From contig JAKSYS010000190.1 of the NCBI GenBank assembly GCA_022925895.1, positions 27,719 through 91,718 of the forward strand: DNA of 64,000 nt, in the 5' to 3' direction. Under the pieces are notes generated by a model, which was not told where the DNA came from, did no database searches, and saw only the letters and a program-made list of their open reading frames with translations. Within the stretch, counting starts at the first letter, position 1. Each line of letters opens with the position of its first letter. The stretch comes from Fragilaria crotonensis. Lineage: Eukaryota > Bacillariophyta > Fragilariophyceae > Fragilariales > Fragilariaceae. Shown one piece after another: positions 351-24,613 of the stretch. The position numbers and the translations under genes were made by a program.

Positions 351-458
351 AAGCATATTTCCGCCAGCGAAAATAAAAATGTAGACTAACTAACATGCAT
401 TGCACTACAATCGGCGTTTTACAGCCATCATGGCTCACTGCGACCTTTGAACAACAAA

Positions 459-592: not shown

Positions 593-610
593 ACACTCGT
601 ATTGTAAGCA

Positions 611-2825: not shown

Positions 2826-4166
2826 CTAATGGTATTTGATGTCCAACACGGCGCCGGAGAATGGAAGACCGTCAACCCGCCATACGTCGTAGATTATGCC
2901 GACATTCTGGTAGGCGACATACATGTGGTGCCCATCAGGACTGAATGCCAATCCAGTTGTCTCATCCTTCTGCGGAAAGCTCCCGCGAAGAATCGTGAAG
3001 TATTTGCCGTTGGGACTTCGACCAAAGACACCTGGTGATGTGGCTCCGAGTCCTCCATCTTCGCAAAAGTACAGGATCGAATGTGAGGTACCCTTTAACA
3101 ATCTTGCAACTTGATCCGGCTGCTCGTTGAAAGCTCCGCTCATAGTTGATGTGTATGTGTATGTCATGTTTCTTAAGTTCAGTATCATGAGCCTCTTCAG
3201 TTTCTTGGAGGTCGTGTACAACATCCCGTCTACAATGTCAATACCTTCGGAGTTGGGGTAGTAAAGTTCAGCGTTGTTCCGAGCGGCCCCTTCGTTTGTT
3301 GTCCATCTGAAAGTTCCCTTAGGACCGCCAGAAATGAGTAGATAATCAAGAGTGCCATGATTAAGGGTGCACCATCGATCGTACTTGTTGGGTTTGTTGA
3401 AGCATTGCATCCCGCGAACGTTGGGGGTAAAGCGCGTAAGTGACCCTCGGTTAGAATCACGTGTGACGTAGAATGTGGGACGCGCTGCATCCTTACGAAC
3501 ATCAAAGGCAAAACTTTCATAGAAGCCCATGGTGCCCATGGCAGTCATGTTCGGCGTCTTCACACCGATTGGATCAACTTGGTACACTTTGCCATTTTCA
3601 ATCTCTTCGCATGTGACCCACGAATTCCACGGAGTCTTGCCTCCGCTGCAATTCTTACGCATCCGGTTCGCCACTCGTTTATATCCAACTATCCTTCCTT
3701 TTGAGTCGAATTCGATGGATCCCACCCCACCGTTCCACCAGTTGATTCCCACAGTTTCATTTTCAGCATTCGAAACGTAATACCATCCACCGTTTGGTTT
3801 CTTGAAAACTGCAGCTCCGTCTGGACTTTTATGAAACTGAATATTGGAACGACCACCGCTGGCATAATTCACATGTTTCCCAGAATATGCAATGGGCTTG
3901 GCGTTGAGACCGTTCGATAAGAAAAGATTTCCATCTGTGGAACGCCTTCCATGGGAAAAGTCTCCCGGTCGGAACTGAACGGTGAGAGTGGCGAGGTCTC
4001 TCTCTATCGATCTGTTGTATGAAGGCTGATCATGAGCTCGTTGTGACTCGTGATCGAACTCCATGGTTGAATGGATCACGTGGGAGTATACATCCGCAGG
4101 CAGCAGAAGTAAGACAAGCATCAGGTACATACACATCGGCAACACATTGGCTGTGGCAGTCCTCAT
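2826..4166 (-). CDS. Secreted PhoX/DUF839-family protein, copy B
   Basis: 446 residues, single exon, close paralogue of copy A. The N-terminus has a hydrophobic stretch (MYLMLVLLLLPADVYSH, ~13-29) fitting a secretion signal. Shared blocks are FRPGDFSHGRRS, SPDGAAVFKKPNGGWYYVSN, TPWNSWVTCEE, ISGGPKGTFRWTTNEGAA, YYPNSEGIDIVDGMLYTTSK and LAFSPDGHHMYVAYQ. Several N-x-S/T sites suggest glycosylation of a secreted product. The three copies differ mostly between the signal peptide and the first conserved block, so that segment is probably a linker. A phosphatase role follows from family membership only; the substrate is unknown. Confidence 0.8.
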   Translation of the reverse strand: MRTATANVLPMCMYLMLVLLLLPADVYSHVIHSTMEFDHESQRAHDQPSYNRSIERDLATLTVQFRPGDFSHGRRSTDGNLFLSNGLNAKPIAYSGKHVNYASGGRSNIQFHKSPDGAAVFKKPNGGWYYVSNAENETVGINWWNGGVGSIEFDSKGRIVGYKRVANRMRKNCSGGKTPWNSWVTCEEIENGKVYQVDPIGVKTPNMTAMGTMGFYESFAFDVRKDAARPTFYVTRDSNRGSLTRFTPNVRGMQCFNKPNKYDRWCTLNHGTLDYLLISGGPKGTFRWTTNEGAARNNAELYYPNSEGIDIVDGMLYTTSKKLKRLMILNLRNMTYTYTSTMSGAFNEQPDQVARLLKGTSHSILYFCEDGGLGATSPGVFGRSPNGKYFTILRGSFPQKDETTGLAFSPDGHHMYVAYQNVGIIYDVWRVDGLPFSGAVLDIKYH

Positions 4167-4911
4167 TACTACAAGGTTTCAAAGAATAAGACTTTGTTAG
4201 GAGCAAATGCGTCTCCTCATTTCGTTTTCGAAAGCGCTTTTGGTAGGTGGCAACAACCTTGATGCATCATTGAGGAGGAATCTGAAATGCGATCCTCTAC
4301 AGTCGGAGTTACCACCTTGCACATGACTCACGACCACACAATCGGTTTTGTGTTGCATCAAAGGCTACCGGCAATTCTACTTTTTCAATATATATTCTAC
4401 TACTACCGGTAGCTACAAGTACCGGTATGATAGAGTACATACATCGTGAATAGCGCTTTGCAATGAGATGTCTTGAAGCTACTGTGAGTGCTGTACGTCG
4501 ACTATCCAATTTAAATCCGGCACTCCAAAGTTCCAATTTCTCAAAATAGAACGAATCGTACAGGTACATTCCTTGTTGGCGCTCGAACTGCATCTGCCGT
4601 TTCGAACGTAACATGTGCTACTGGCACTGTACGTATGAGATATTCATACATCCGCAAAAGCACTATACGCATACTCGTATGCCATAGGAATCATCACGAG
4701 TTTGATGCAATCTTTCGTTCATCAACCATGTAGTATCATAGCGAATCGCATCCGAGTCTGGGCTAAGTCATTTGAAAGAAGAGCGACTCTAGTCGACGGG
4801 GAATAAAATATGTATGGCACCATAACTCTGGTGATACGCATCAGTATCGATCGCGTGTTGCAAAATGCATTTTCATATATGTAGGACAGCGCAATAATAC
4901 TCGGTCAACGC
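4167..4911. other. Spacer between PhoX-like copies B and C
   Basis: No supported gene. It contains the imperfect palindrome ACTACCGGTAGC at 4402-4413 followed closely by AGTACCGGTA, upstream of copy B. The rest is low-complexity-free AT-rich sequence without recognisable elements. Confidence 0.6.
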
Positions 4912-6390
4912 TTATGATTGAGTTGAATCGTCCATCGCGTGGTATTTGATATCCAACATCGCCCCTGTGAATGGATAACCATCCCTCCGCCAAACCTCGT
5001 ATATGATACCTACTTTTTGGTAGGCAACATACAAGTGATATCCGTCGGGACTGAAGGCCAAACCAGTAGTCTCGTCGTTATTCTCGAATTTACCATTCAG
5101 AATGTTGAAGTACTTCCCGTCTGCGTTTCGGCCGAAGACACCAGGCGACCCATCACCTTTTCCTCCGTCTTCGCAAAAGTATAGGATCGAATCAGGATTG
5201 CTAGTCACCAATCGCGCAACTTGGTCAGGTTGTTCGTTGAACGCTCCCCCGCTGGTAGATTCATACGTGTATGTCATGTCCCTCAAATTGAGAATCATTA
5301 GTCTCTTGAGCTTCTTCGATATGGTGTACAACATACCATCAACAACGTCAATGCCCTCGCAGTTGGGGTAGTAGCTTTCAGCATTGTCGCTCGCGGCACT
5401 TTCGTCAGTAGTCCACTCAAAGGTGCCACTGGAACCTCCCGAAATTAGCAAGTAGTCACTGGTACCGTGGTTAAGGGTGCACCATCGATCGTAGTCGTCC
5501 ACTTCATTGTAACACTCCATACCTTGATCGTTGGGAGTAAAGCGTGTCAGGGATCCCCTGGGAGAATCGCGCGTGACGTAGAAAGTTGGTCGATCGGCAT
5601 CATCGCGATCATCGAAGGCGAAGCTTTCGTAAAATCCAGAGGTCCCCATGTCGGTTTGATTTGGTCCTCTGGTACCAGTAGGATCTACCTGATGGACTCC
5701 TCCATCCAAAAGCTCCTCACATGTGACCCACGAATTCCACGGGGTTCTTCCGCCTGCACAGTTGTGCCGTAAGTGAAACGCTACTCTTTGGTAGTTAACA
5801 ATTTGACCATCCTTATTGAATTCAATAGCCCCAACGCCGCCATTGAACCATTCTTCGCCTCGAGTTTCATTTTCGCAATTGGAAACGTAGTACCATCCGC
5901 CATCCTCCTTCTCGAAAACTCCAGCCCCATCCGGCTGGCCATGAAAGCGAATATCAGAACTCCCACCGTCATGAAAGTCCACAAACTGTCCACTGATTGC
6001 AATGGGCTTGGCCCCAAGACCATTGGACAGTCTCAAATTCCCATCGTCCGAAAGCTGATTATCCGAAAAGATTCCCGGTTCATATGTGAGACGCGGTTTG
6101 TCCGGATCCGTGTAGTTACCAGCCTCAGCAATGCGACATTGTGCGGCACGAGAGGCACCGCCATGAGCACATCCATTGGAGTAAAACTTCATGGCGCGGC
6201 GGTTATGAAAACTGCGGGTCATTCGTTGTGGCAATTCTTCTCCGCGACGACGAGATGAAGATCCAGTCGATAACGACGACAATGACAAGTCATTGATACT
6301 TCCTCTCGAACGTCCGATCGGATGCGCCTCCATCATGGGGGCGACGACAAGCGCGAGCAGGAGGAGGGACGCAAGTGAGAATGATGTCAT
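4912..6390 (-). CDS. Secreted PhoX/DUF839-family protein, copy C (longest)
   Basis: 492 residues, single exon. Residues 1-22 form a signal peptide (SLASLLLLALVVAPMMEAH). A 70-residue Ser/Arg-rich extension absent from copies A and B comes next, then a short Cys-containing segment (NGCAHGGASRAAQCR) that may form a disulfide. The family core follows: YEPGIFSDNQLS, HGQPDGAGVFEKEDGGWYYV, TPWNSWVTCEE, FYVTRDSPRGSLTRFTPND, YYPNCEGIDVVDGMLYTISK and LAFSPDGYHLYVAYQ. Likely an outer-surface or secreted hydrolase of the PhoX type. It is more acidic and more diverged than A and B, so the A/B duplication looks younger. Confidence 0.8.
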   Translation of the reverse strand: MTSFSLASLLLLALVVAPMMEAHPIGRSRGSINDLSLSSLSTGSSSRRRGEELPQRMTRSFHNRRAMKFYSNGCAHGGASRAAQCRIAEAGNYTDPDKPRLTYEPGIFSDNQLSDDGNLRLSNGLGAKPIAISGQFVDFHDGGSSDIRFHGQPDGAGVFEKEDGGWYYVSNCENETRGEEWFNGGVGAIEFNKDGQIVNYQRVAFHLRHNCAGGRTPWNSWVTCEELLDGGVHQVDPTGTRGPNQTDMGTSGFYESFAFDDRDDADRPTFYVTRDSPRGSLTRFTPNDQGMECYNEVDDYDRWCTLNHGTSDYLLISGGSSGTFEWTTDESAASDNAESYYPNCEGIDVVDGMLYTISKKLKRLMILNLRDMTYTYESTSGGAFNEQPDQVARLVTSNPDSILYFCEDGGKGDGSPGVFGRNADGKYFNILNGKFENNDETTGLAFSPDGYHLYVAYQKVGIIYEVWRRDGYPFTGAMLDIKYHAMDDSTQS

Positions 6391-6801
6391 CGTCAGAAGT
6401 GGAAAGGTCGAAACGAATGAGATGTATCAAGACCTCCTGACTCTGGAGGTGCGCACAGATTCAATAGTTTTGCGTTTTGCGGAGGGAATTCATCTCACAT
6501 GTCGATATGTCGCATGACGTGAATCTGGAAAATTCACGATTCATTATATGCAACAAGGATTTTGCACTCTCGCGATGATTGATGTGGCAACGTTACCAAC
6601 GACTGAACACTACATGCATAGCCGTATACATCTATATGTTCCTTCTTTCGCGTGTCTGTTCAAACTTATTCTGCATATCTAAAATCCCGTATGGAACATG
6701 TATGATACACATAGAGTCACGCTGCTATCATAGAGTGTATGGTCTATTTATGTCATATGTCATACACAGTAAACAAGCTGATGTACTCCAAGTAGTACCA
6801 G
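6391..6801. other. Spacer upstream of PhoX-like copy C
   Basis: No gene seen. It should hold the promoter of copy C and ends at the left inverted repeat of the pogo-like element. Scattered GTACC/GGTAC words lie near 6790-6806. Confidence 0.6.
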
Positions 6802-6821
6802 GTACTAGTTTAAGCACAATA
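6802..6821 (+). repeat. Left TIR of the pogo-like element
   Basis: GTACTAGTTTAAGCACAATA; exact reverse complement of 19890-19909. The outermost GTA may belong to the target site. Confidence 0.8.
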
Positions 6822-7155
6822 GTGGGTTGAAAAACAGTTATCGTCACGAAAATACGTCGTAATATACTCAGAGGGGTACCAATCGACGCACAATTTCATA
6901 CCGGATCGACTGGTTCAAGAAAATCGGGGATACGACCATATGTTGTGAAGTTACGTTTAGTCGAAAATTCCGAGCACTCGTTTTTTTTAACATAGTAATG
7001 GGACTCCCTAGCTTTGCCCGTGTTAACAGACAAAAAAAATCCTGAAAACAATTAATGCCAACGTTGACGATGGGAATGAAGGCACAGACAATGGTAAAAT
7101 TGAGTCCATTTGCTTCAAACCTCATCCTAACACATGTACCTAAGTCATTGTATCC

Positions 7156-8320
7156 TTACACTTCTTCAATTGGTGGTATGTACGTTGTCCACTCATGATC
7201 AAGAGATGCCAATTTTGCGACAATGGCTTCTGTTTTCTTTAAATCTTTCATGAGACCCGTAGCTTTAGACTCTGGAAGAACCCACCTGATAATGTCAACC
7301 CAGTCCTTGTCTGTCATTGCACTACTGTTCTGTCGATACTTTTGTAGTGCAGTCTGCGCACTAACAAGTATTTTGGCACGACGATCAGCTCGATGTTGTT
7401 CCTGTGCTGCACTTTTTGCTGCTTCAAGGTCAACCTGCTCCTTCTGAGCACGTAACACCACATGTGCATTTCCAATCCTTGTTCCAATAGTGTTCCAAAG
7501 CCCCCCTGCGGAAAATGAAATCTTTGAATCGCACAGCGTCTTGACTTGTTCATCTTCATTAGTCACCCTTTGAGTACGAGCGGCGACAGGTATGGTTGCA
7601 TCAAAAACACCTGCATTCAAACCATGACTCTCTGCTACAGCAACAAGATCATCGTATCTTTTTTGAAGGTCCTCAAGCGCATTTGCTCTCGCAAAACCTT
7701 GTTGACCCAACTCATGCCTCACTTTCTTGTGGAAGACACAGTTACGAGTGAAAGGAACAAAGCCAACTTTTTCCCATGACGCAACAATTCTTTCCTTTGT
7801 GAAAAACTTACTGAAGGGCTTCATATCAAGTGCATCTCCATTGACACCATCGACAACAGTTGCGAGATCCTCAAACCCGATTGCCAATGGGGGCGGTGCT
7901 ACCACTGCACCATTGTACCCTCGTCGTGTCCTGCGATTCTCTTGCAGCTCGCGCCCTCGCATTGTCAGCTTCTGAGTCAGCAGAGCTTCGCCGCGAGCAT
8001 AAGTTGCTGCCTTAAATCCTTGGTACATAATGTCCATCTCTTGTTGGACGGCAGTGGCATTCGGGAGACCCATAAGAATGTATAGTCCCATTTCCAGGAA
8101 CTTTGCACGTTTGGAGATGCTCTCGGCTGAAGCAACCATTCTACCAGGGCCCGAGTCCACCTTTAAGATCACGGGGCCACAAAGAAGTCTACCTGAAACA
8201 AGAAGTTGATGAGTCGAATGAAGTTAGAAGAATTCTTGAAGAAGGCAACAGCAGCAACAAACCGACAGCAAGAGTGGTGGTTGGTGCACACTTACCAGTT
8301 TTGGAATCGAAAGATGCTGC
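7156..8320 (-). pseudogene. DDE_1/pogo-like transposase, 3' half (separated from its 5' half)
   Basis: It encodes the C-terminal half of a DDE transposase. Read on the minus strand: exon remainder 8320-8296, an intron 8295-8193 (donor GTAAGT, acceptor TTTCAG, 103 nt), then 8192-7156 to the stop. Spliced, it reads ASFDSKT|GRLLCGPV and then LKVDSGPGR (second catalytic Asp), followed by GLPNATAVQQEMDIMYQGFK, which matches the pogo/DDE_1 'LPpnTT..QPLD...FK' block with the third acid. A basic, Gln-rich tail follows. There is no start codon, so alone it is only a fragment. It continues the protein broken off at 17932: same strand, matching phase, exact frame once the inserted element is removed. 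Confidence 0.85.
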
Positions 8321-8322
8321 AT

Positions 8323-8342
8323 CAGGGAGCCCAAATCTCTGG
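8323..8342 (+). repeat. Left TIR of the CMC-like element
   Basis: CAGGGAGCCCAAATCTCTGG, preceded by AT at 8321-8322. It pairs with 17912-17931, differing at positions 6 and 8. Confidence 0.9.
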
Positions 8343-8754
8343 TTTGTACTTCACCCGGTGGGTTTTAATCACATATTCCATCAATTTCTACTTATTTCTG
8401 AGAAATGTTTGCTTCATTGTAAATATATATGAACAACAAAACACATTTCTCCTATTTATTGGCAATGTATGATTTTCAGATATTTGTAGCTTTGTTGTAG
8501 ATATTGTTTTACAATAATAACTCTTTGTGCATTATTCAATGGTAATTTATCTTGAATTCTCTGTAATGGGTCACCACCGGCCAATGTTCACTCATGCTCA
8601 AGTTCCAAGGATGCCCGCGCATTTTCTTCACGCGCCAGACTCAGGATTATGTTGCCTATGTCTCGCGCCAAAATTTGTTGCAGTATGCATCTTATGTTGT
8701 GAATTCAGAAAATAGACCTCAAAGTTGCACCATCAGGCATTGTTGACAATTGTC

Positions 8755-11658
8755 ATGTTTGATTGCTTTAACATCAATTGCTATGCTAGGTTTAAATCTG
8801 AACGCGGACTGCGTATGCACCTTTGGCGGAGTTCATCCTGTAAGGATTACATGGAAAGGCAGCAGTCAGGAACTCGGGCAAGCGTGGATGGTTGCCCCGA
8901 AATTGTTTCGACAGTGCGACGTCCCTGTTATGGTGTAGAATCAACCCGCCTGAATCCAGGAATGGACACAAATCCTCCCACGCACATGCCATTCGAAGAA
9001 TTTGACTATGGAACAACTGGCTATGACGACGGCAATGATGATGATGATGACAATGAAAATGACAAGAATGAAATGTGTTTTAACGCCCAGCAGTTAGATC
9101 AACTTCCAATAACAACGACACTCTTTCCTGGAATTGACAATACTGCATCTCCTGCAGTTGTCCATGCGTTGATGGAACGCATTCGTGCAAATGAGAGGCA
9201 TGCAGTGATGGTTTTGCAACATGATGTTGAACATCGATGCATTGTTGAACTTTTAAAGATTCTGGAGGACGCCCAGTGTCCTGACTATATGCTGCACAAA
9301 GTTTTAATGTGGGCTTACAATGCAAAGTCTAGCGGCTTTGACTTCAAGCCAAAAGCTATGTCCAGGAAAGCGAACATCCGATGGATGTATCAGGCTTTGC
9401 AACATTCACACCACCATCTCCCCCAGGTGATCTCCATTGCCCTTGAAGATCGTGACAAACCTCAACAGATTGCTTGCTTTGACTTTGCTCCCATCCTTTG
9501 TCGTTGCTACAGGATGAAGACTTGATGGCACCAGAAAATCTTGTGCTTAACCACGAGGATCCCACGTCAATGTACCTCCCACGCAACAACAAAATTGGTG
9601 AGGCACACACTGGAAGCCGCTACCGTGAGCTCTATCATGAACTTATCACTCGAAAGAATCAGCTACTTGTCCCTATCATCCTCTATATTGATGGGACTGC
9701 CATTGACAGCAAGGGGCATGTTGAAGTGTGTCCTGTGTCCTTCACGACATCTCTTCACTGAGAAGCTCAGGAGAAAGAGCACATCCTGGCGAGTACTAGG
9801 CTATGTTCCTGACTTGAATCGCGGACGATCATCCGCAATGAACTCTCAAGCCAATAACGCACAGTCCAAAGGACGCACCACACGTAATTTTCATGCAGTG
9901 ATGGACGTATTTTGAATGGCATGTCAAAGGCACAAGCTGGAAATGATTGTCGTTTGAGGAATGTTCCTTTGAAACTTGGCGGTCAGTGGGTGGTTGTTGA
10001 TATTGTTTGTCCACTGCTTTTCGTGATTAATGATGGTAAGCAAGGCGATCAACTTTGCTGCCGTACAAACAGTCACCATAGAAGTACACCGCGTCACCAT
10101 CGGTCCTGTGATTGTGTTTTTGACGATCTTGACAATCCAAATGTTGAGTGTTCTTTTCTTCGCATGGATTATGTCAATGATGCATGTCGCAATGGGACAG
10201 ACGATTTACTTCAGCAGCTCTCGATGTACAGGGTTGACAATGCCTTCAACCGTGTCCAGATGGGACGTAATCCTCATGGCATCTTCATGTGTGCTGTCAT
10301 CGATGTCATGCATACTGTACAGCATGGTGTCATCATGTATGTACTTGAGTCATTCAAGACTTGTCTTGGCGCCGAGATCTTGGCAATCCTTGATGACATG
10401 GCACTTAAATTTGATGTCACATGCCTCCAAACTATTCGTCAAGATTTTCCTCGAACTGATTTCGCACGCGGCATCACCAACCTAACACTTATTGAGTGCT
10501 CGGAACAATCAGGTACTTTGTTCCTTTTCGCTGCACTGACTATGCAGGCTGAGGTATGGCATGCCATCTCAAGGTACATCCCCGATCTTCCGGCAGTCCT
10601 GGGTACAATGGAATGCCTTCTGTGCTTCGAGGCATGGCTGGATGCTGATACCTATTGGGACGCTATAGGAGGAGATAAAGTTGGGGAGGCAGCCTTGGCA
10701 GAAAATGCAATTACACGGCTCATGTCTCTTATTCTGAAGTACCTCCCACGAGATGCTGGTAATGGCTGGAAGGTGTCAAAATTCCACGAATTGAAACACA
10801 TCGTCCGTTTCATTTCTACGTTTGGAGCACCTCGTGGTTACAATGCCTCACGACCCGAGGAACATCACAAGGCCCATGCAAAGCGCCCTGCTCGTCGTTC
10901 ACAAAAGTGCATTCAGACGATAGACCAGCAGTGCGCACGGAGAATTGCCGACACATTAGTCATAGACACAATGCACGCCGTGTTTGCAGAAGAATTCCGT
11001 GAAAAACGCTCCCCTCAACACATCACGTCCACTAGCAACGAAAGAAGTAGGTCGTGGCACTCGCTATCACATCCGATGCTTCCGTGATCCCAATCAGAAC
11101 AATCGTTTGGTTCGTGAAGTTGTTTTCATAACGGAAACAAGGGAACCCATCCACCTCGAACCAAATCTTGCACTTTTCATAGTGCAATCGTACAGTGAAA
11201 CTGACTTGGATGAGAATGGGGAGGGTACGATAGAGTGTAGCACTGAATACACAAAGTACGAAGTTGATTCAGAAGAGAAGTGCATTTCCATTCGAGCCCA
11301 TCCAAATTTTCGAGGTGATGGATATCCCTGGTATGATTGGGCATTGATTCGGTTTGAAGACGATCAAGGAAACTTGGATGACTTCCCATGTCGTATTGTC
11401 AGTTGTATTCACCGACGTGGACATCCCCAGGAGGATAAGTCATTCGACCTCGTGGTCCAATCTTGCAATCAGCCCACTGGTCGCGAGTCCATATTGTTCA
11501 CTGAGTGGACCTTTGACCGAAAATTCTACGTTGTTTCCAGCACTGCACTTGTTTCTTTGTGTTATGTACTTGTCGATGGTTGCGAGCTTACGGACACAGT
11601 TTTTGTCGTGAAGGATAAGGAGGAGTGGGCATCTCTGTTTTACAAATCTGTGTGGTGA
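8755..11658 (+). pseudogene. CMC-type (Plavaka/CACTA-like) transposase, frame-broken
   Basis: Product about 960 residues if the frames were continuous. The start at 8755 gives MFDCFNINCYARFKSERGLR..HLWRSSSC, a C2H2-type DNA-binding finger like those opening Plavaka transposases, then a poly-Asp/Asn linker (~9031-9070). Catalytic-type motifs are VPIILYIDGTAID (~9670-9710), a conserved block around LGYVPDLNRGRS, and IDVMHTVQHGVIMYVLESF (~10300-10360). A domain after 11050 lacks a recognised family. The frame changes near 9497, 9757, 9910 and 11005, and none of these sites looks like an intron. The transposase would therefore be dead unless the breaks are assembly indels. The antisense cargo gene lies just downstream, tail to tail. 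Confidence 0.7.
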
Positions 11659-11688
11659 TCCGCATTCTTCAACTATAGTACGTATCAA

Positions 11689-14089
11689 TTAGTACCTCAA
11701 CCTCTTCCTTCTTGGTACCGTGTAGTTGCCCTGCATCAGCATGGCTGCCGTTATAGATTCAGTTGGTGTCCCTTGTGAACGGTCTCCCGACAACATCACC
11801 CGAGGATGAAGGTCTTCATTGAGACTGACATGTCCCTCTCCATCAAAGTTATCCATCGCCACGGAGTCAGAATATTCATCATCAATATCGCGAGAGAATA
11901 GGGATGAGTCGTCATCAGCAGTCACCGCTTCATCAGGTTGGTGTACCTTATCCCAACCCTTCTTCTGCGCGTAAAAACACAACCAGTGTTCCTCCGAGCC
12001 ATCTTTGGGCGGTGGATGCCCGTCAGGGTCCGCATCCTCAATTTTGGGGACGTAAGGTGGAAGCACTTTATCCCACCAAGGAACAAGGTCATCGTCATCA
12101 TTGCTGTTGTCATCACCGTTAACTCCAGCGGCTCCAACAACATCCACGCCCACGTGCGGTGCAATGATTTCGTCACCGGATGCTGTGACAGGACATCCAG
12201 CAGCCGCAGCCGCAGCTGCCCTGCATCGTCCTGCATTTACAATCCGCTCTTTAGCGGCGGAGAATGTACCATACACATGGTTCAGTGTGGGATGGTCGCC
12301 ACCCCATATGGCTTGCCAGTTCCGTCAGGACAAGTCAGTGACGTACAGTGACGTATGACTCGGCCATCCCAACTGATGGCTGTTCCATGGTATAGCTTGA
12401 CAGCAACGCCATTGAATGGCGCACCGTTATTGTTCCCGAATAGATTTGGCATCACAAAAACCAGTTTGCCGCCTTGCCAGGGACTTCTTCAGTCCAAACT
12501 GAGAAGCCCTGTGAGGAGTCACCCACATCGAAGTGGGAGGCGTTTCCAAGGTCCACGGACATGTCAATGGAATACGCCACACGATCTTCACTTCCCTTGT
12601 CAGCCATTGGTGTTACAGGGTGGAGACCGGTGTCGCCTTCAGCATCTTGCATCACGGCAAGAACTTCCGGAAAGCAGTTCGCACCAATCTTAGCCAACGA
12701 CTCAACAAACTTCCGCAACATTCGCTGGGGAACTTTCGAGTTTGCAGCGTACTCTGCCGTTGTCACTCCGTCAAGAAGGATGCGAGTCCCAATCGGATGC
12801 ATGTTTCCAAGATCACCGCGACTGGCCCTAGCCGAGCCGACAGGAACACGCGTCCTCAACAAAGAGTTGTGTAACGTGATGAAACGCAAGTCCTCAACCA
12901 TGAGTGGTCGCCCTGCTTCACCCTTACACAATGGATCCAGAGTTGGCGATAAGATCTGGCGAACCATGATGATCGACTTCCGAGATGTGCAATTGCCAAT
13001 TGGTGCAATATCCACAACAATGTCAACCACAGCATTATCAGCCCCATCAATCACAAGACAATCGCTGGGCAGGCGGAAGTGATGGCAGCCAGGAGCATAG
13101 TGTCTCCCCAATTCTGACAGAGTTTGACCTCGCCAAGCGGTCATTGAAAGCTTGCCCACGATCAGCTGGATGCCACGCACCAATATCAATGCCACCGATG
13201 ACATCAGGTGGCATTCGAGGACCGTCAGCATCGGAGCACTGACTTGCCCAATACACCTGGCGACTCAATTTTTCGTGATGATAACTCCGGGATATTTTCC
13301 AAGCGGATACAAATCCACCATCTGCAGAGGCATCGGAGGCAAGTTTTCTCACGTATCCACCCAGACCGAAGGCCAATCGGTCCATTCCAGTATCTGATGA
13401 TTCACTTGTTGCCCGAGAGAGTCGAAGCCAGCTCATGTCCAGCTGTACAAACGAATTCTGCAAACCCGTCTCAGCCTTGCGTCGCTCGCGGTGGCTATAC
13501 AAGGTGCCAGCACCGGGAAGGAAAGCAAGCACCGCACAGTACTCGTAATCCTTCCCATCCTCGTCATCGCTGTCAGTGTAGACGCACGCATTAGCGACAG
13601 CGTCAGGATCTCGTTCGGCCAGAGGAGCCACACCTCTCCCAGTTGTGGTCGCGCGCGATGAAGAATAACATCTAGCAAGAAGAATTCCGAAACATGGTCA
13701 TGTACACCAGGTCTACAGTAGAGTTCATCAAGGGAACGAAGTTGTGTGACATGATACTGTTTTTCTCTTAAAGAATCCTGAATCCACCGCAGTGGAGTCC
13801 CACAAATACATAGATCATCAGGCATCTTTGGACGTGAATCCATCGCAGCCTTGAAGCCACGACGAACACTCCCGAAAACCAAGGGGAACACACTTCAACA
13901 GAAGCGACAGAACCTTTGGATGGCCAGGTAGTAGTTCCTACGGCCACGCGAACGTGGCATTCGTTGTGCACCACCTGCAGCTTTTCCAGGGTTTACACGC
14001 GGGTTGTCCCCAAGATTCAGAACGCTCGAACGACAGATCGATGTCCGACCACGTGTAGCCAAATGGTCGTTGTCATCATTGCGAATCAT
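11689..14089 (-). pseudogene. Cargo gene of the CMC-like element with a possible Fe(II)/2OG-dioxygenase core, frame-broken
   Basis: About 780 residues spread over successive minus-strand frames with breaks near 13890, 13610, 13150, 12455 (a run of five A) and 12300. I recognise no family with certainty. Readable blocks include SYHHEKLSRQVYWASQ, CHHFRLPSDCLVIDGADN, TRVPVGSARASRGDLG, then NASHFDVGD..GFSVW, ANWF|FVMPN, VKLYHGTAISWDGRVIRHCTS and an acidic, Ala-rich C-terminus. HFD (codons 12535-12527) followed ~62 residues later by the His of RVIRHC (12350-12348) has the spacing of the HxD...H iron triad of a double-stranded beta-helix dioxygenase. TET/JBP-type enzymes are known cargo of KDZ transposons in fungi, so a nucleic-acid-modifying role is an attractive but unproved reading. 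Confidence 0.45.
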
Positions 14090-14108
14090 GGAAGTTGAGC
14101 GAAGGCGA

Positions 14109-14840
14109 CGTCAAGCTGCGTCGTCTGTTGAATGGCAGCTTCAGCGACAGGACAATATCAGTCCTCCCAACGACGTTGATTGCGGCTTGCCAGATGACGT
14201 CAAGTCGCGTCGTCTGCTATATGGCAGTTTCGGCAACAAGACGCCTGACAAAGTCGACAGCGATTGCAGGGCAGGCCAGATGTCGTCAAGCCGTGTCGTC
14301 TGCTATATGGCAGCTTCGGCGACAGGACGCTCCCAGTCCTCCCAACAACGTTGATAGCGCTCGCAAGATGACGTCAAGTTGCGTCGTCTGCTATATGGCA
14401 GTTTCGGCAACAAGAGCGACTCCCAACGAGAAGCTCGCAATCAGTCGCTGTCGTCGCAGTTGTTGTTGTCCCAGTCGTTCGTCGTCCCAGTCGTTCGTCG
14501 GAAGATATTCCGAACTTAATGCACTCAGCGCCGTCGTCACAGTCGTTTGGCAGTGATTCCGAACTCAGCCAAGCAACGCAGGCTCACGTCGAAGGTGCGT
14601 CGTCTGCTATATGGCAGGTTTGGAAACACAACGCTCGCAATCTGACGCACGCTGTCGGAAGATATTCCGAACTCAACGCACTCAACGCCCTCGTCACAGT
14701 CGTTTGGCAGGTAACTCAACGCCGTCGTCGTTCGTCACAGTCGTTTGGCAGTGATTCCGAACTCAAGCAATGCAGGCTCACGTCGAAGGTGCGTCGTCTG
14801 CTATATGGCAGCTTCGGCAACACAACGCTCGCAATCTGAC
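14109..14840. repeat. Internal repeat array of the CMC-like element
   Basis: Six spaced copies of a unit around GCGTCGTCTGCTATATGGCA followed by G(C/T)TTCGGCRAC begin near 14118, 14207, 14293, 14381, 14597 and 14791. The first has TTGA for CTAT. Three copies of a second unit (TCACAGTCGTTTGGCAGTGA-like) lie near 14536, 14695 and 14737. An inverted copy of CTGCCATATAGC occurs at ~15873, next to the accessory gene. CACTA transposases bind subterminal repeats of this kind, but this array is mid-element, between the two convergent/divergent gene sets. Confidence 0.75.
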
Positions 14841-15920
14841 GCTGTTGACAATGAAAAGACTTCCACAACAGTAATGTTGGTGTGAACAATTGGTGTGGTG
14901 TGAACAATGTTGGTGGTAACATGAATAAATTGCTTTCGATACGTAGCAAATGTACTAGAAAATCGATAGAGATTTCCAATTTAATGCGTAGCTAGTGTAC
15001 TGGACGAAACGTAGAGACTCCAACAGCATGAAGTGGGACTTCGAACACAGTATACAAAAAAAACTAGAAGCTTCCTAGGAATTGATAAGAAACTTTGGTT
15101 ACAAGATCGATACATAGGATATATTAATCGCATACGAATTTTCGATTGCGAATGCGGAGAGTTTAACCCCAGAAGACATGTGTCACACAAGTAAAGAAAT
15201 TGCTATTTACACGAAATGATTTCTATTTATTTTTTTAGTTTAGAAATGTGAGGACTTCAAGTCCCATTTCCGCGGTAAGCAAATCTATGGCAGGGATGCA
15301 CATGTATGAATCTTGAATACACTTCATAGTGTGCTGATTAAATCCATATATGTTATATTCGTCTATAACTATCACAAGTAATATGTCCGAGGCAGTACAA
15401 GCTTGTCATATAAACATGTGTGACCGTCAACAAACAATGTACAGATGTGCACAGTAGTACACAGTACCCCAAAGATAGCATGCAGTATTACTATAGCTAC
15501 TGTTACTTATTACAATAGTACAGTACGGTATTTCTACCACAGCATTGCAGTGTAGTTCTACCGTCATATGCACTTCATTACTTTGGTACGGTTATTACAG
15601 CGTCATTACATATGGATAAGTAGATATTTAAATGGATGTACTTATTGAGCAATGCATGTGCCCTTCGCTCGAAAGACTTGAAAATATTTCTTTTGAATAA
15701 TTTAGTTCATAAAGAAATACATACATAAAACACAGATTTCGAGGGCGTTGATTTTTTACAAGACCAGCACACAAAGCACCATCCCGCAAGATGCAGCACA
15801 ATCATATTTTACAATAGTTCTCAACAACAAGAGATCTTGTTGATGACAGTTGGTTACACCACACCTGACGAGCCTGCCATATAGCTTGCTCTGATTGGTG
15901 TGTACCTGCAGTCAACCAAG
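14841..15920. other. Non-coding stretch inside the CMC-like element
   Basis: No gene supported. AT-rich with a GTAC-containing patch at about 15430-15600, and the inverted copy of the array unit (CCTGCCATATAGC) at 15872-15884, shortly before the ATG of the accessory gene. It probably contains that gene's promoter. Confidence 0.55.
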
Positions 15921-17598
15921 ATGTCGTCGAGCGCGGGAAAAAGAGGCACCAGCAATCAAGGTGGTGGCAGTCGTGATCATGGGCATGGAAAAGGTGCTGG
16001 GCATGGAAAAGGTGCTGGGCCTCCAAACGCAGCGCCAGTTACAGTTAGGGGGCAATCTTCAAACTGGCAAGGAAAAGGATCACCATCGCCTTCTGGCAAT
16101 TCGCAAATGATACGACGGAGTCAAGCTGCAACGTTGTCGCCCAGCAGAACCCGCAGTCAACAAGATGCAGCAACATTGTCACCCATGATCATGACCCGAA
16201 GTCAAACTGCAGCATTGTCACCCATGATCATGACCCGCAGTCAAGCTACAACAGCTGGTCGACATGCTGGTTTCACGAATCCAGGAAGTGGAGTTGGAGG
16301 AATGTCTGGTAGATCACAACAGGAACGACAACAAGAGCGACGACAACAAGAGCAACGATATCTACAACGACTTCAAGAACGATTTCAAGAACAACAACAG
16401 CGACAGCAAGTTCAACAACAAACACCACCAGCAGCAACAACAATAGGAAGGCAAGACGATATTGCACGCGATTTAGGAATTCACACATGAATTGGTGCAA
16501 GAAGCGTCACGACGGGAGGATAGCAGCCGCACTGCATTGACGAAAACGGTAAGGAGAAGATTGGAAATGGGTGATCATGATGGACTGACAAGAACTAAGC
16601 TTAGAAAAGTAAGCCAAGAGTTCATGCACGACAAGGTGGTCAAAGAGCTCTTATTTCCGAAGCAAAAGTTTGCAACTCTGGCTGAACTTGACTTCAGCAA
16701 CAGTCCACACTCAATTTGTAGGTTCATGGCGAGCAAGCTCCAGATAGAAGGCGAGGATGAAGTGAAGACTTGGTGGGATGGAGTCAAGAAACATGTTAAT
16801 GATGCATTGAAAAGGCATAGAAATAATGTCATCAAAACCATCAAACAACTTTTTAGAGGTGAGGAACGTGCATATTGCTCAGGATGGTGGTAACTCTGAT
16901 TGACTTTCTGTACTGACAACTGTTATTTCACAGATAAAATACTGGGGCGAGATGGATATGCTGTCACGTTTGAACTTAATCAGATTGCTGGAATGAGGAG
17001 TCCAGCATCTAAAGAAAGATACATTGACTTCCTTGACTGCCTTGTCAAGGCTGTTGTCGGGTACAGCAAGTACATGGAGAATCGCACAAGGCAGCCTCTG
17101 AGTCAGTGGTTCACACTGACGGACGAGGCCTTCCTGATGGTGTGCATCGAATCGTACATGACAAAGTGGAGGCATGATTGGATGGTACAGAGAATGGGAC
17201 CTCCAGCCACATTGCCACCTCGCGATAGTTCTCCACAATTATATGAGGCAAGATACACTGGAAAAACTTACGGAACGAAAAGAAGTTGGTCGAAGGAAGG
17301 GTTAGAGCGTTTCAACGCATTAATGATTGACGTGTTTCGCAACCGTCAAGAACATGGAGCAGCATTTGACGCTGACTTCTTGGAGGAAATGAAGTTCAGG
17401 TATGCTTCTGGAATTGACGCTGCAAGTGGACAATCTGGAGAAGAAGCTGAGGTAATTCCTGTGGCGACTGTTCAGCCAACAATTGTCTACAATGATTTCA
17501 ATATGGAATTGTTATTAGCACACGCAAACATCACTGGAGGTGCAGGGATGAATGGAGAGCAGCAACCTGACGATGGAGTTCGAGGAGTATCAGTTTGA
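15921..17598 (+). pseudogene. Accessory protein gene of the CMC-like element (TNPA-like position), one frame break
   Basis: Start at ATG 15921 (MSSSAGKRGTSNQGGG). The N-terminal ~180 residues are Gly/His-, then Gln/Arg-rich, with three MTRSQ-type repeats and a predicted coiled region (QERQQERRQQEQRYLQRLQ). One frame change near 16480 joins GRQDDIARDLG to HELVQEASRRED. An intron at 16859-16933 (GTGAGG..CACAG, 75 nt, phase 1) joins KQLFR to DKILGRDGYAVTFELNQ. The rest is an alpha-helical basic domain with no family I recognise, containing RSWSKEGLERFNALMIDVFRNRQEHG. CACTA elements usually encode a second DNA-binding protein besides the transposase, so a TNPA-like role is inferred from position and composition. 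The break may be an assembly indel. Confidence 0.55.
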
Positions 17599-17664
17599 TA
17601 ACAATGGTGCTTGTTAGTGTGCTGGCAACAACACACAGTAGTAGTACAGTACTGTGCCAGCTTA

Positions 17665-17734
17665 ACACTAGAAATATTTGCGGGAAAGTTTGGAATGTCA
17701 CACTAGAAATATTTGCGGGAAAGTTTGGAATGTC
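17665..17734 (+). repeat. 35-bp tandem duplication near the right end of the CMC-like element
   Basis: The segment starting ACACTAGAAATATTTGCGGG is present twice in direct succession (17665 and 17700), downstream of the accessory gene and about 180 bp inside the right TIR. Confidence 0.85.
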
Positions 17735-17911
17735 AAGCCAAATGGGAGAAAGCCTTTGTACAGAATTATGTATAAAACTTTAAAGATACTTCTGCAGTAA
17801 TTTCACTTTTTGTACATAAATATCTAGAAATTTTCTAAGTAATAGCCAACGATTAAGGTGAAAGATATTCAAATATTTATTTATAAAATGACAAAAATAA
17901 TTATTCAGACT

Positions 17912-17931
17912 CCAGAGATTTGGCCCCCCTG
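17912..17931 (-). repeat. Right TIR of the CMC-like element
   Basis: CCAGAGATTTGGCCCCCCTG, reverse complement of the left end at 18 of 20 positions, followed by AT at 17932-17933. Confidence 0.9.
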
Positions 17932-19644
17932 ATGTGTTCTAGATATATTAGGATACAATGGCAATACGACACGTTCAATGTAATCATTGAACAAGGAGTC
18001 ATCCATAGACCCACTTGACCTAACAGAAAAGAAACTTCCAGACTCGACTCGTGATGGACATCCAAATCGGCCTTCAATAGTGGGAAGACCCTCTAACCAA
18101 CTCACTTTGACCCGAAAGTTCTTTTCCATCGTTGCCGAAGAATCAAAGATATACATGGGGGGAAGCGCTTCTCCCGCGGCATTTGTTGCATACACACCCG
18201 TTACATGACGTCCTGCTTTCACTGTTCTTTTGTACCCTCGCTGCAGGTTAGGATTGTGATACATTGTTGACCTCGGTCCCCCCTTTTCTGTAGTAATAGA
18301 GAGGTCGTGATGTGTTTCATCCATGTTGATGATGCGTCGTTTCACATCATCACCACCACAATGCGGAGAACGAAAGTCAATTTCAGAAAGCAGCTCACCG
18401 TTTTCATTTAAAACCTTCTGATCGATCGCAAGACCTGAAGCAAGCAAGTCGGCCTTTGCATCATCGAACCACTGCTGCAAGTTATTGTATGTTGTCCATC
18501 GGAGACGAGCATCTTCGGCAGTTGCAACCTTTGCTGCTTGCAACTTTTCTGGATGCTGTTCTCTCAGCTTCCTCCACACTGAAGTTACTTCAAATTTACC
18601 TTCATATCGTGTGCCATGCACAGCAGCTCCAATCAGCCGCTTGAAGTCCCGTCCACGGAGCTCACCGCCATTGCCGACCTGGCTAACTTCGGAATGCGTT
18701 GCTGTAACGTCGAGGAGCAAATCGGGGATCTTTATGGAAGGCCCTTTCTTGCAAGGACTCAATCCAACTTTACCATGTTGAACTGCTCTGTATAGTGTTG
18801 ATCTCGTCAACTTCCTCTTACCATCAAGCTTGTACTTACGGTTTAACTTCGCAACAAGACTGGGAACTGATTCTGCGCAGCTACCATTTTCCTTTGCTGC
18901 AATTGCTTCGGTGGCTTCTTTGAATGCCACCTTGAAACGAGCACTGTATTCCATTTGCTCTATTCTAGCATCAAGCCGTGCTATACTTGCTTGCCTTGAT
19001 GATCTTCTTGTTCTTCGTTTTGGTCTTGGCGGTGCAATACTAGTAGCTGGAAGTGGCGGCGGAGGAGGAGGAGGAGGAGGAAGATGAACAATACTGTTGT
19101 TGCTTTCCCCTTCCTCTTCATCATCAGCATCAACAACTGAGTCGGACAACAGAAGTGCTGATGGCTCAGTTAAGGGTGACGTATTTGTTGTTGCTGTCCG
19201 ATCCTCCTCGTCGTCATCGTTATCACATGATGGTGCTGTAGAAAGGTCAATTATCATTCCTTCTTTCTTCTTATTTAAAAGTAGACTCTGCTCCAGCTCC
19301 TTCTGTTCTTGTTTCTTAACATAGTAATGCAGCAGTTGCGGAGTGACAGTGTCCTCAAGGCAACATGCCCGAATCGCAAATTTGAGCGTGATCTTGTTGA
19401 CCACCACCTGCGAAAAAATTAGCAGTACACATTGTTAGTAGAAAGCAAAATAATTTTGGTCAACACTCCGGATATCTTTTCGCAAGAAAACTCACATCAC
19501 AATGGCAATTTCAGATGATGATATTGAAATGAAACTCACCAGTTTGACAGCATCTTCAATGGTGTATGACTCAGTTCGTCTCCCTTTTTTTGATGATAAG
19601 TCACCATCAAACTTATTTTGCCCTGCCTTTCGCTTCGTTGACAT
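17932..19644 (-). pseudogene. DDE_1/pogo-like transposase, 5' half (separated from its 3' half)
   Basis: Exon 1 is 19644-19540 (MSTKRKAGQNKFDGDL..., 35 codons). Intron 19539-19408 (GTGAGT..CGCAG, 132 nt, phase 0) follows, then exon 2 from 19407 (VVVNKITLKFAIRACC) to the insertion point at 17932. Domains: an acidic/proline-rich linker (~100-150), a helix-turn-helix with SLVAKLNRKYKLDGKRKLTR and STLYRAVQHGK like psq/CENP-B DNA binding, and the start of the DDE core, INMDETHHDLS, giving the first catalytic Asp. The frame ends ...LYPNIS-RTH and then runs into the TIR of the inserted element. The second and third catalytic acids are in 7156-8320. The joined product would be about 880 residues. Confidence 0.85.
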
Positions 19645-19889
19645 GCTCGAAGTATGAGCTATTGTTTTCAGGAATAGATTTGCACTGCGCCAAAAATTAT
19701 GGCTCATCTTAGGCTTCTGTAACTTCCACCTCAGCTGACCTACGAAGAAAAAAGCTACACAACCTCTCTACCAATTACAGTTATCTTCCAGTTTGATAGA
19801 GGCATAAAGAGAAGTCCTGGTGTATGGATACATCGATTATGGACGGAATCTGGAGTCGTCCCATTACTCCTGAAAACAATTCGTCCCGA

Positions 19890-19909
19890 TATTGTGCTTA
19901 AACTAGTAC
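19890..19909 (-). repeat. Right TIR of the pogo-like element
   Basis: TATTGTGCTTAAACTAGTAC, exact reverse complement of 6802-6821. Confidence 0.8.
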
Positions 19910-20644: not shown

Positions 20645-23131
20645 AATAATAATAAGCGAACTAATTATTAGGGTTTCCACCATGTGAGAACCTTTCGGGA
20701 TTCACTGTGTACCCAGCTCCGGCGATTTAAAGCTCGCGGGAGCTCGTGTTGGCTTCTATGCTGACTGAGTGTGAAATTTTTGTGTTCAAGCTGCTAGAGT
20801 GACAGATCTGGTCATTGTCGTGGGGGAAAAATTGGGTGATGAGAGACTGGTTATTACTCTCCTTTTGGTTTCGCTTTGCTGATGCCTTGACGCGGTGTAT
20901 CCAGCGGTCCTGTGTTGATCGATTGGAGGATAAGAGGCCAGTTAGAGGCAGGCGGAAGAGATAGTTATCCTCGCGCTGGATCAGGTCGGGATGAGCATAA
21001 AAGTGTCGAATTTCAGATTGCGTGGTCGAGCGAATTTTGTCCATTTCTGCATTTGTAGCGCTGTGAAGAATCTCGTTGCGCGACTTCCAGAGATGTTTGG
21101 TGTACGCCTGAAGATCTTTAACCAGATTCTTCATGCGTTTTGCTGCCAAGTCGGATTCGAGACGTTTAGGATCAAACGTATGTAAGGCCGCCAGTCCGTG
21201 CCACTCTTTGCTCAGGTAGCCTTTTGCGGCGTTGTCCCATCCTATCGACGTTTGCCTTTTTGCCGTTAGCCGTACTTGAGCCTGCATATGCAACGGAAAC
21301 TGGGTAAGATCCGGAGAAAACTCTGAAGATCCTGTGGACTGCCAAAAGGAAAGCCCATCATGAAGGAGACGTCGGATAGGATGTGGTGTGTGTTCGTTAG
21401 TGTCCCGAAGCAATGCGAGTCGTTCTTTGAGTATGGATGGATTGTTGGGGCAGCGCAGAAAGTGCTCACTAGTTTCCTTTTGTCGAAGACAACACGGACA
21501 AAGTTGAAGACCTTGGTCTTCGGATGCGGATCGGTGAAGCCGGCGCCATCCGAGAGGTAGCTGATTAAACACAAACTTCATATGTTGGATCTGATCGTTG
21601 CAGGGCAGTTTTTTAAAATGTGAGCCAAAGAGTTCCATGTCGATGTCCTCCCAGGTTCTGTCATCCCATTTATTGCGTCGCTGGACGTATTGTCGAAGAT
21701 GGTAACCGTTGATGTGAAAGCGAAGGGATTCGTCGAACTGGCTTGTCAAACGTGTGCCATTTACCAGAAGCGATACCTGTTGTTCAGAGTAATGGTCAAC
21801 GTGCGAAGATGATTTGAGCCTGCCCCTCTGACGGTAGCGAGTAGCTAAGATATCGGCTCTGATATTGAGTTTCGCTGCGTACGGAAGTTTCGCATATTCG
21901 ATTGTTGTATCGAGGTGCCCCTTGGTCCATTTGAATGCCACGGATCTACGGAGTTCCTTAAGAAGGGAGCGAATCAGAGATAGCAGATCTGCATCAAAGG
22001 GTTGACGATGCGGGCTGCAATTTCGGCGACACATCTTTCGAATTTTTGCAATCGCTGCTTTACTATCCGTGATCCACGTGAATTTGCAACGGTGGTGGAT
22101 ACCCCAGTGACGCGCCAAACTAACTATGAAAAGGAGTGACGATGCGAAGCCGGCCATCTCACACCTCGTGGAGGAGAGCGTATCACTTGGACCGTCGACG
22201 GGTCCACTTCCCTGAGCCAGATGACACTTGTTGGTTGCCAGGACCCAGCCAAAAGTGCCTTGTTGTCCTTGCAAACCGCCATCTGATGCAATGTGCAGTC
22301 GTGCTCTTGAACGCATTGCTCTCCAGAGTTGGACATCTGGAACCAGCTGTTCAACGCCTGAGACCATACGAGCTTGTGATCGGTTTAACGTCCTCATGTA
22401 GGCCTTCAAACTGTCAAAAGAATGAGGTGGCGCCGCTGGTTCCTTACTCGGAACCCAGGACGTTGGGTGCTGTTGTTGCTGCAGGATGCTGTTGTTTGGA
22501 CCCCCTGGAGATGATTTCCAATACGGGATATACCTTAAATATGAGGAAGACACGAAGCGTTTCCAAAGTCGGCGCTGGCGGGAAGATGGTGGAGCCTGAC
22601 GAGGCCACTCAGAGTGTGACTGCCAGTCGCTAGCACGAATACCGTCCAGATAGTCCAGGTTTATCGCTGATGGGCGCGTTGGGTCCACCATTTCCGCTAA
22701 TGTATTCACTTGGAGATAGAGCCGAACCAAGTTTATGTCTCGTTGCTGTGCCTCAGAGTAACGGTTCAAGTGATGGGATTGCATGATGAATTCATCAGTA
22801 GGGGACTTCAGTGAAATGCACGGATGATCTGTAATGGTTAAGGACAGATTGTGTCGGGGCCATGAATTCGCGGAGCGATACCAGCCAGCACTGTGTTAGG
22901 TAAGGAATGTGAGCCTTTGGGTCTTCAAGGAGTTTTGTTCCCACCCCGGCCTCGAGCTGAAGATAGTGAAGGTTGATCATAATGAGTTTACCTGTGGAGG
23001 ACTGCGAGAAGAGAGCATGTCGAAGGAATTTCAGTTGTTCAATGCCGACCTCCGTCCGAACATCACACAAGTTCAATCCCCCAAAAGCGGTCGGGCCGTG
23101 CCGGATTTCAGTTGGGAGTTTTGAGCTCACG
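20645..23131 (-). mobile_element. 5'-truncated LINE with RNase H
   Basis: The insertion lies between two identical 16-bp copies of TGGATGCAGCAAATGT. The 5' end (high coordinates) starts in the RT thumb region and the 3' end (low coordinates) finishes in an AT-rich tail (TTATTATTATTACAT). Both are marks of target-primed reverse transcription. About 2.49 kb remain. The coding part matches, block by block, the LINE at 38143-46856, which places both in one family of RNase H-bearing LINEs (Ambal-like in diatoms; clade not verified). Confidence 0.85.
20727..23131 (-). pseudogene. LINE ORF2 remnant: RT thumb, RNase H, zinc knuckle
   Basis: A 685-codon open frame (22784-20727), preceded in another frame by LPTEIRHGPTAFGGLNLCD (to 23131), so one frame break lies near 22790. 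The RNase H core shows LHIASDGG (Asp), SSTRCEMAG (Glu), WITDSKAAI (Asp) and FKWTKGHLD. LCPCCLRQKETSEHFLRC then forms the zinc-binding segment that follows RNase H in this LINE family. The reverse transcriptase fingers/palm and the endonuclease are missing through 5' truncation, so the copy cannot move by itself. The long uninterrupted frame suggests a fairly recent insertion. Confidence 0.85.
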
Positions 23132-23147: not shown

Positions 23148-24613
23148 CACCCACCCGACCAATTCATTGCTTCTTCCTTCACTTTAAGCATAGCCAAACC
23201 AGAGAATAGAACATAGAATTAGAACAGAGACTCTCTATATTAGTATTCCCATTGACTATCATGGTTGGCTGTGCGTACTGCCTCCACCCATTGCTTGTTC
23301 TGTTTACTGCTTGCTGAAGGATTAAAAGAAAAAATGGGTCATCACTTAAGTTCCACAGAAAAAGCTTCCATGTTTCAGGAGGTATATCTCAGAGACTCTC
23401 CACCAAGAAGATCATGGCAGATGCGGATTGAAAACATGGACAAGACAATGGGTTTGTTGCTTTCTTGGTTGAGCTGAGGAGTTTGTTGCAGCTGCTTCAG
23501 CTTCACTTTCCTTCTTGATGTTGAAAGACCAGCAATTCTTCTTGTCAGGAGCTCTATCACTTTTGGCAAACCCACCAGCCAGAGCATTACTGTACCAATC
23601 ATTGATTGTTCCCAACCTGCAACCATGACAGGGAACACCACTTTTTTCCATCCGGTACTTGTCCTTATGTGGAGGTTATAAAGTATCCCAAACTCTTGAC
23701 TTCAGATTATGAAAGGATGCGAATGTGTTTCTTCCTCACTGAATTGGCCAGCACTCCTATGGTTTGCTTGGTGAAATCATCCCCATGTATTGTTGCCACC
23801 ACCATCATCATGTGACAAAATGGCCATGTCCATCATGTCTCTGTGTTGAATCCAAGAGCATCAAGAGATGAAATCTGGGCTCATTTGCTTGGAATAGTGT
23901 CTCATCTGACAACCACTTTTCTGTAACATATCTGAGATGCATTTCTACATTTTTGCTTAATCAGAGGCTTTGGGCACTGAAACTGCTGCAAAAGTCGCCT
24001 TTGTGGTTGCTCCAGTACTGAGTACTGTTTACAGTACTCCTCCGTATGGAATACAACTAACAAGATTGGCTGACTTGTCAACTTCGTGAACAATGCTACC
24101 GGTAAATGTCTCACACGTCTGACGTAGTCTCTCGTCCAGCGTTTATGTAAAGGCGAGGGTATTCATTGATATGTGTCAATCGTGTTTCTAAAGAACACCA
24201 TAAATTTAGACTGGTGTCCCGCTCGGCTGGGATGGCTGGCTCGATTTGGCGCCTGTTGTTTTTGATTATATCTAAAATGTCCAGGCTTGCGTGCAACGTA
24301 CTCTGGAGTGCAGTACTCAGTACATCAAGATAATGAACAACTTAACCCTTGCAATGAAACGCTGCGAATCACACGGAGTGACGTCATTGCCTTCCGTAGC
24401 ATGCCATATTTTGAGAGTGAAACCTTAAAAAACACCATACATCACCAATACTACGACGCAAAGTCGTGCGTTGTACGAAGACTCAGCTCTCGCCCTGTTC
24501 TTCTCGTTGTTGCATCTAATTCTACTTTGACTCGACCACAAGGAAACCAGGGACTCAGCCACCCCTCGCGTTTGATCTTCCTCCAGTCAACCCAACTCTG
24601 CCCATTTGAAATC
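23148..24613. other. Unassigned sequence right of the truncated LINE
   Basis: No intact gene. A minus-strand stretch (23651-23412) reads VPCHGCRLGTINDWYSNALA and continues protein-like, but its frame is closed on both sides and matches no family I know. Stops are frequent up to 23900. The part after about 24100 should hold the 5' region of the HA-repeat gene; in-frame ATGs exist at 24401 and 24614. Confidence 0.4.

Follow-up and report, generated by a model that had tools for sequence, protein, structure and literature searches.

A Plavaka-like transposon most probably inserted into the transposase gene of another DNA transposon in the diatom Fragilaria crotonensis

The 64-kb stretch of DNA analysed here (the window), from contig JAKSYS010000190.1 of the diatom Fragilaria crotonensis, comprises a 13.1-kb region (positions 6802..19909) where, almost certainly, a Plavaka-like transposon sits inside the transposase gene of another DNA transposon, with a duplication of the dinucleotide TG. 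We propose that the outer element, about 3.5 kb long and putatively of the cut-and-paste type, with a three-exon, minus-strand gene for a DDE-type transposase, was the first to insert and duplicated TA, and that a 9615-bp Plavaka-like transposon (CATCAGGG..CCCTGATG) later entered exon 2 of the outer transposase gene, duplicating TG. The insertion would thus separate the codons for the first two acidic residues of what is presumed to be the catalytic triad. At this locus the outer transposase has probably been inactivated; the remaining outer terminal inverted repeats (TIRs) could still serve a transposase produced by another copy. Nesting is in itself ordinary and not new, nested transposon insertions being widely described. 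PMC2213677, on PIF/Harbinger elements, is an example: one element interrupts another as in the window, and the families differ.

An initial annotation, made from the letters of the window, had already described one DNA transposon inserted in another, and this claim stands together with the order of events: insert-free relatives of the outer element, in which the two halves are contiguous, exist in the genome searched (62.1 Mb, 881 contigs; C-numbers denote contigs, and L-numbers the loci compared with the window elements), and two other copies of the inner element, on C3 and C764, have the same ends as the window copy.

The outer transposon and its uninterrupted relatives

The outer element, about 3.5 kb long without its insert, is bounded by 22-bp TIRs that match at 20 of 22 positions (6805..6826, plus strand, CTAGTTTAAGCACAATAGTGGG; 19885..19906, minus strand) and, as initially annotated, enclose both halves of the transposase gene; about 0.01 ungapped inverted pairs of this quality would be expected by chance in 13.1 kb of equal, independent bases. 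At each end, the CTAG... terminus adjoins a TA; these are the target-site duplications (TSDs; 6803..6804 and 19907..19908). The left terminus is common to the relatives L005-L009, L012 and L014, and TA stands outside CTAG at 14/15 outer-family termini (counted by eye among the matches to an exact pattern in 21 loci); at its left end, the C291 relative has only a shorter form of the terminus (GGTAGTTTAA).

Both halves of the gene lie on one strand (minus) and, as the initial annotation had stated and C291 confirms, form a single frame that is in phase with the next intron, itself shared by C291. Exon 1 runs from the ATG (19540..19644; splice sites deduced from GT..AG and from the C291 alignment). 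Exon 2 comprises a part upstream of the insertion, which encodes the N-terminal half with the first D (17937..19407), and an end downstream of it, which includes one copy of the 2-bp duplication (8296..8319). It is followed by a 103-nucleotide GT..AG intron (8193..8295), at the same position and in the same phase as the 101-nucleotide intron of the C291 paralogue, and by exon 3, which encodes the C-terminal half with the second and third D of a D-D-40-D arrangement (7153..8192). Upon removal of the insert and of one 2-bp duplication, the outer gene, exon 1 included, encodes 878 amino acids with a single terminal stop.

The uninterrupted outer copies that the initial annotation had called for were found. 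A DNA search of the genome matched the N-terminal side 54 times and the C-terminal side 29 times (window included). Of the 29 outer-family loci (L002-L030) with which the joined protein was compared, 19 extend over the joint. They represent 18 distinct loci, L010 being identical with C291, and as some are near-copies, not all are mutually independent; the insert is absent from 18/18. First, 13 relatives (L003, L004, L011, L015-L020, L024, L025, L027 and L028) align unbroken through the joint. Second, the halves adjoin on C291, which presents an 850-amino-acid open frame once its intron is removed, and C350 carries an intronless 838-amino-acid open frame, nearly the whole protein, across the joint. 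Third, L029 has 27 additional residues near the joint, and the other joint-covering relatives break at or after it, with a gap that is intron-sized or smaller where the next piece is seen.

Because the outer gene differs from that of C291 by a non-synonymous divergence (dN) of 0.22 and a synonymous divergence (dS) of 1.10, it seems to have been under coding constraint before its interruption and until recently. There is no near-identical second copy of the outer element in the genome; the best relative is 73-76% identical over long stretches, and C87 holds a 161-bp terminal piece that is 89% identical to the outer element.

Three side observations concern the outer family. The intron present in the window and on C291 is missing from the 13 relatives that align straight through the joint, and was therefore gained or lost within the family. 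Relatives of about 1.27 kb with outer termini (L005, L006, L008 and L009) are presumably internal deletions. Seven copies of the 11-mer GTACCAGGTAC, counting its complement, are spread over the 64 kb (6795, 19970, 31956, 47171, 47275, 51697 and 58211), two of them near the two ends of the outer element.

As to classification, the acidic residues of the outer protein lie, in this order, in NMDE, ILKVD and EMD, with spacings of 147 and 40 residues. We take its motifs (MDET / D / QEMD, the second and third D being separated by 40 residues) to resemble those of pogo / Tc1-mariner transposases (Pfam DDE_1), with which the element also shares the TA duplication, so that a pogo-like affiliation is plausible. 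It differs from them in the length of its protein (878 amino acids), in having its first and second D separated by 147 residues, and in lacking a DDE_1 match. The initial annotation had assigned it to DDE_1/pogo, and the DDE_1 part of that name found no match: no outer-family member scanned with Pfam matched DDE_1, and the 36 DDE_1 matches found elsewhere in the genome (33 above the cut-off of that model) coincide with none of the 70 outer-family matches listed by the protein search, in which 54/200 candidates were scored (lists compared by eye). A structural comparison carries almost no weight, the AlphaFold model being poor. Judging from motifs and termini, we would call the outer element a member of a TA-duplicating DDE family that stands outside the Pfam DDE_1 matches.

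Termini and target-site duplication of the inner transposon

The inner element spans 8320-17934 (9615 bp). When begun at CATCAGGG, its TIRs are 23 bp long and match at 21/23 positions (8320..8342, plus strand, CATCAGGGAGCCCAAATCTCTGG; 17912..17934, minus strand, the element ending in CCCTGATG), a pairing for which about 0.003 occurrences would be expected by chance on the assumptions used for the outer TIRs. It is flanked by TG on both sides (TSDs at 8318..8319 and 17935..17936). The initial annotation had rightly noticed a near-perfect inverted pair; it ended the repeats 3 bp short on each side and accordingly placed the element at 8323-17931, with a duplication of AT at a CATG target. AT does flank 8323-17931 on both sides, and deleting this segment plus one AT likewise preserves the reading frame. 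Both cuts keep the frame because they differ by six bases, and frame restoration could therefore not tell the two pairs of boundaries apart; the frame is indeed restored, as had been emphasized, but this has no special meaning, since it is expected of any precise insertion.

The following lines of evidence decide between the two sets of limits. First, CAT precedes CAGGG at 28/29 of the family termini read (by eye, window included; the exception is on C72), and CAT therefore belongs to the element; an AT duplication would demand a CATG target nearly every time. Second, the two bases outside CAT match in 9/10 paired insertions (P about 1e-10 at a chance of 1/16), and the matching duplications vary: TG in the window, TT on C3, AT on C764, TT on C137/C76, CA on C14, CG on C188, TG on C261, TA on C317 and AA on C594. 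This count treats C137 and C76 as one insertion and leaves out C629, whose ends are in opposite orientation, as well as C84, C72, C108, C405 and C471, with one end read; the assignment of two ends within a contig to one insertion is ours, and is less sure for the broken-up C188, C261 and C317. Third, only the cut that removes 9615 bp plus 2 bp yields the joint length of the relatives. A conserved PN is separated from the next conserved F by six residues in 18/18 of them, and the window has six residues between these landmarks with the corrected cut and eight with the cut initially annotated, which introduces two residues found in 0/18 relatives. Thus, the joint reads ACA GCA, where CAT GCA had been proposed, the duplicated TG being CA on the other strand. 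The proposed empty site (ACACATGCAGCATC), searched as a 15-mer, does not occur in the genome. We consider the AT-based limits to be very improbable.

The limits 8320-17934 agree with the two other full-length inner copies, on C3 and C764, which match bases 1 to 9609 of the query. Independently of this, the inner elements of C137 and C76 (L034/L040 and L035/L041) have the same flanking sequence on either side, so that the two contigs represent alleles left separate in the assembly or a segmental duplication.

Age of the inner copy and quality of the assembly

Since it shows 13 substitutions in about 8.49 kb (0.15%) relative to C3, the inner copy of the window is recent. The same comparison counts 20 gap events, 9 of them in homopolymer runs; the corresponding figures are 34 substitutions in about 8.48 kb and 33 gap events (11 in homopolymer runs) for C764, and 30 substitutions in about 6.09 kb and 17 gap events (9 in homopolymer runs) for C137. 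Within a 1.8-kb interval of the window (12200-14000), indels outnumber substitutions in 5/6 nearly complete copies (L032-L037), the exception being L037, with 25 substitutions. This excess of indels, often in homopolymers, suggests polishing errors in a long-read assembly, and the frame breaks in the window copy may consequently be sequencing errors.

Weighing the nested insertion against other explanations

Several points weigh against the nested insertion proposed above. First, Pfam matched neither half of the outer transposase nor the joined protein. Second, the 2-bp flanks of the tenth paired insertion, on C295, mismatch (GC/CC). Third, neither the corrected empty site (ACAGCATC), with up to three mismatches allowed, nor an insert-free allele of the window locus was found in the genome. 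Fourth, the copies differ by many short indels, some of them in homopolymers, so that the assembly cannot be fully trusted at the finest scale.

The last point bears on another explanation, namely an assembly artefact in which unrelated loci were joined inside repeats: near-identical inner copies could mislead an assembler, and the short indels between copies suggest imperfect polishing. However, the same 2-bp duplication and complete TIRs are present at both junctions, and the two flanks jointly give the joint length of 18 relatives, which is not expected from a misjoin, so that we give this explanation very little credence. That splicing removes the inner element from the outer transcript like an intron, leaving a working outer transposase, is equally hard to credit: an AG does stand just beyond one border on the strand of the outer gene (GATGCAG), but a GT donor is missing at the other border, and, at 9.6 kb, such an intron would exceed the 103-nucleotide intron of the same gene about 90-fold in length.

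The inner element appears Plavaka-like

Gene 1 of the inner element (8716..11658, plus strand) encodes a Plavaka-like transposase with an N-terminal zinc-finger-like stretch recognized by eye; its frame is broken in the window copy and open, over 833 amino acids, in the copy L034. A Pfam scan of this transposase gave no direct match, and the window locus is not among the 80 matches of a genome search with the Plavaka profile (PF18759, cut-off 26.3 bits). The Plavaka affiliation appears through homologues: the inner transposase is homologous to proteins of C5, C131, C147 and C728 (E-value 3.3e-103 or better, 35-36% identity), which themselves score 39-49 bits against PF18759. When rescored against Plavaka, the C5 piece gave an E-value of 4.5e-13 and 49.6 bits; it is 33% identical to the inner transposase over 275 columns.

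The termini point in the same direction. According to the parts of PMC12730594 that describe the fungal Plavaka families, which are grouped there with EnSpm/CACTA, PlavakaB elements have CATCA..TGATG termini and 2- or 3-bp duplications; the inner family shows these termini (28/29) together with a 2-bp duplication (9/10). The corrected boundaries thus identify the element, since CATCA..TGATG with a 2-bp duplication is the published PlavakaB mark, and the CMC-type name initially given to the inner element was broadly right. An AT duplication would have led a classifier elsewhere. We considered ISL2EU, whose elements presumably have AT duplications, and rejected it: the duplication of the inner family varies in sequence, and Plavaka homologues were found.

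The inner element resembles the fungal PlavakaB elements, as presented in PMC12730594, in its ends, in its 2-bp duplications and in the presence of a second gene beside the transposase. It differs from them in that its transposase has no direct Pfam match and its second gene is not TET/JBP by Pfam. All the TET-carrying Plavaka families of that report belong to PlavakaB; the report deals with fungi, its main text is devoid of diatom, stramenopile, algae and protist, and the passages that name an oomycete and Chlamydomonas do so for other enzymes or elements only. Plavaka-type transposases have been reported in an alga and in a protist, as in the window: EnSpm-Plavaka elements are listed in the green alga Auxenochlorella (PMC12636532), and giant repeats of Amoebidium are flanked by a Plavaka transposase (PMC11244446). 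The presence of Plavaka in an alga is therefore not new in itself. In the relevant passages of these two reports, the partners named are tyrosine recombinase genes (Amoebidium, PMC11244446) and no oxygenase, and neither termini nor duplications are given. Our search of the open-licence literature (Plavaka with diatom, stramenopile or algae) revealed no published case of Plavaka from a diatom. Taking profiles and termini together, we regard the inner family as a Plavaka-like member with PlavakaB ends in a diatom, accompanied by a partner gene.

A gene convergent with the inner transposase

This partner, gene 2 (11689..13894, minus strand), is convergent with the transposase gene and belongs to a conserved family with an invariant HxD...RH; similarly to gene 1, its frame is broken in the window copy and open in L034, over 808 amino acids. 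Its homologues gave at least 71 matches on at least 45 contigs (56/523 candidates scored). A gene 2 match and one of the 80 Plavaka matches occur together on 16 contigs. On 9/16 (C30, C109, C157, C295, C341, C502, C529, C777 and C797; the Plavaka match of C295 is below the cut-off) the pair converges, 2.4-2.9 kb apart, as in the window; on C317 the two matches are close and share a strand, and more than 11 kb separates them on the remaining six contigs. From these recurring convergent pairs, gene 2 seems to be a regular companion of some members of the Plavaka-like transposase family.

Regarding its possible function, the HxD and the distal H are invariant in 8/8 gene 2 core sequences (two of them nearly identical), as are many other positions. 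In our view, the HxD...H resembles the iron site of the Fe(II)/2-oxoglutarate oxygenases such as TET/JBP. Pfam matched neither the 808-amino-acid frame nor the members L060, L064, L065 and L068. Neither of the profiles PF12851 and PF20515 matched anywhere in the genome, a weak test given that PF20515 was silent in the control genomes and PF12851 matched in one of them only, below its cut-off. Searches of the PDB with gene 2 sequences returned one chance-level match each. The predicted fold (AlphaFold, mean predicted local distance difference test score 35.4) matched nothing in the PDB at an E-value of 0.001 or less, and carries almost no weight, the model being poor; no 2-oxoglutarate oxygenase figures among the 18 fold matches listed; for the same reason, this is no evidence of absence. 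A search of viral contigs gave 26 pattern matches, none of which was confirmed, and no diatom transposon associated with a TET dioxygenase was found in the open-licence literature. That gene 2 encodes a divergent TET/JBP-like (2-oxoglutarate/iron) DNA-base oxygenase, acting as the standing partner of a PlavakaB-ended Plavaka lineage in a diatom, is a tentative proposal that we deem possible and rather unlikely.

Other features of the inner element and of the window

The inner element also contains diverged tandem-like repeats of the families D1-D5 (14082..14842) and a third gene (15885..17598, plus strand), for which no Pfam family exceeded its cut-off (DUF4777 was sub-threshold, with an E-value of 0.09).

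Elsewhere in the window, three adjacent genes of one family (611-6426, minus strand) encode proteins of 446, 450 and 504 amino acids, the two scanned matching Pfam PhoX over a short stretch. A 1083-amino-acid frame (32442-35693, plus strand) fuses APS kinase, ATP sulfurylase with a PUA-like domain, and inorganic pyrophosphatase. Two plus-strand frames (24266-25906 and 54040-55971) contain repeats that look similar by eye, and the first matches four helicase-associated (HA) domains. The sulfurylase fusion and the HA repeats are both suggestive of a diatom. Frames on the minus strand (20727-22895 and about 38763-43840) resemble, by eye, remains of non-long-terminal-repeat retrotransposons; the two scanned had no Pfam match. 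Rfam and tRNA scans of the window returned nothing.

Implications

The locus illustrates why target-site duplications need to be checked across several copies of an element. As for the partner gene, if the tentative proposal were true, the alliance between a transposase and an anti-silencing enzyme described from fungi would be older, or would have arisen again in an unrelated lineage. If gene 2 is a DNA-base oxygenase, the fungal idea of transposon-borne anti-silencing enzymes would become testable in an alga.

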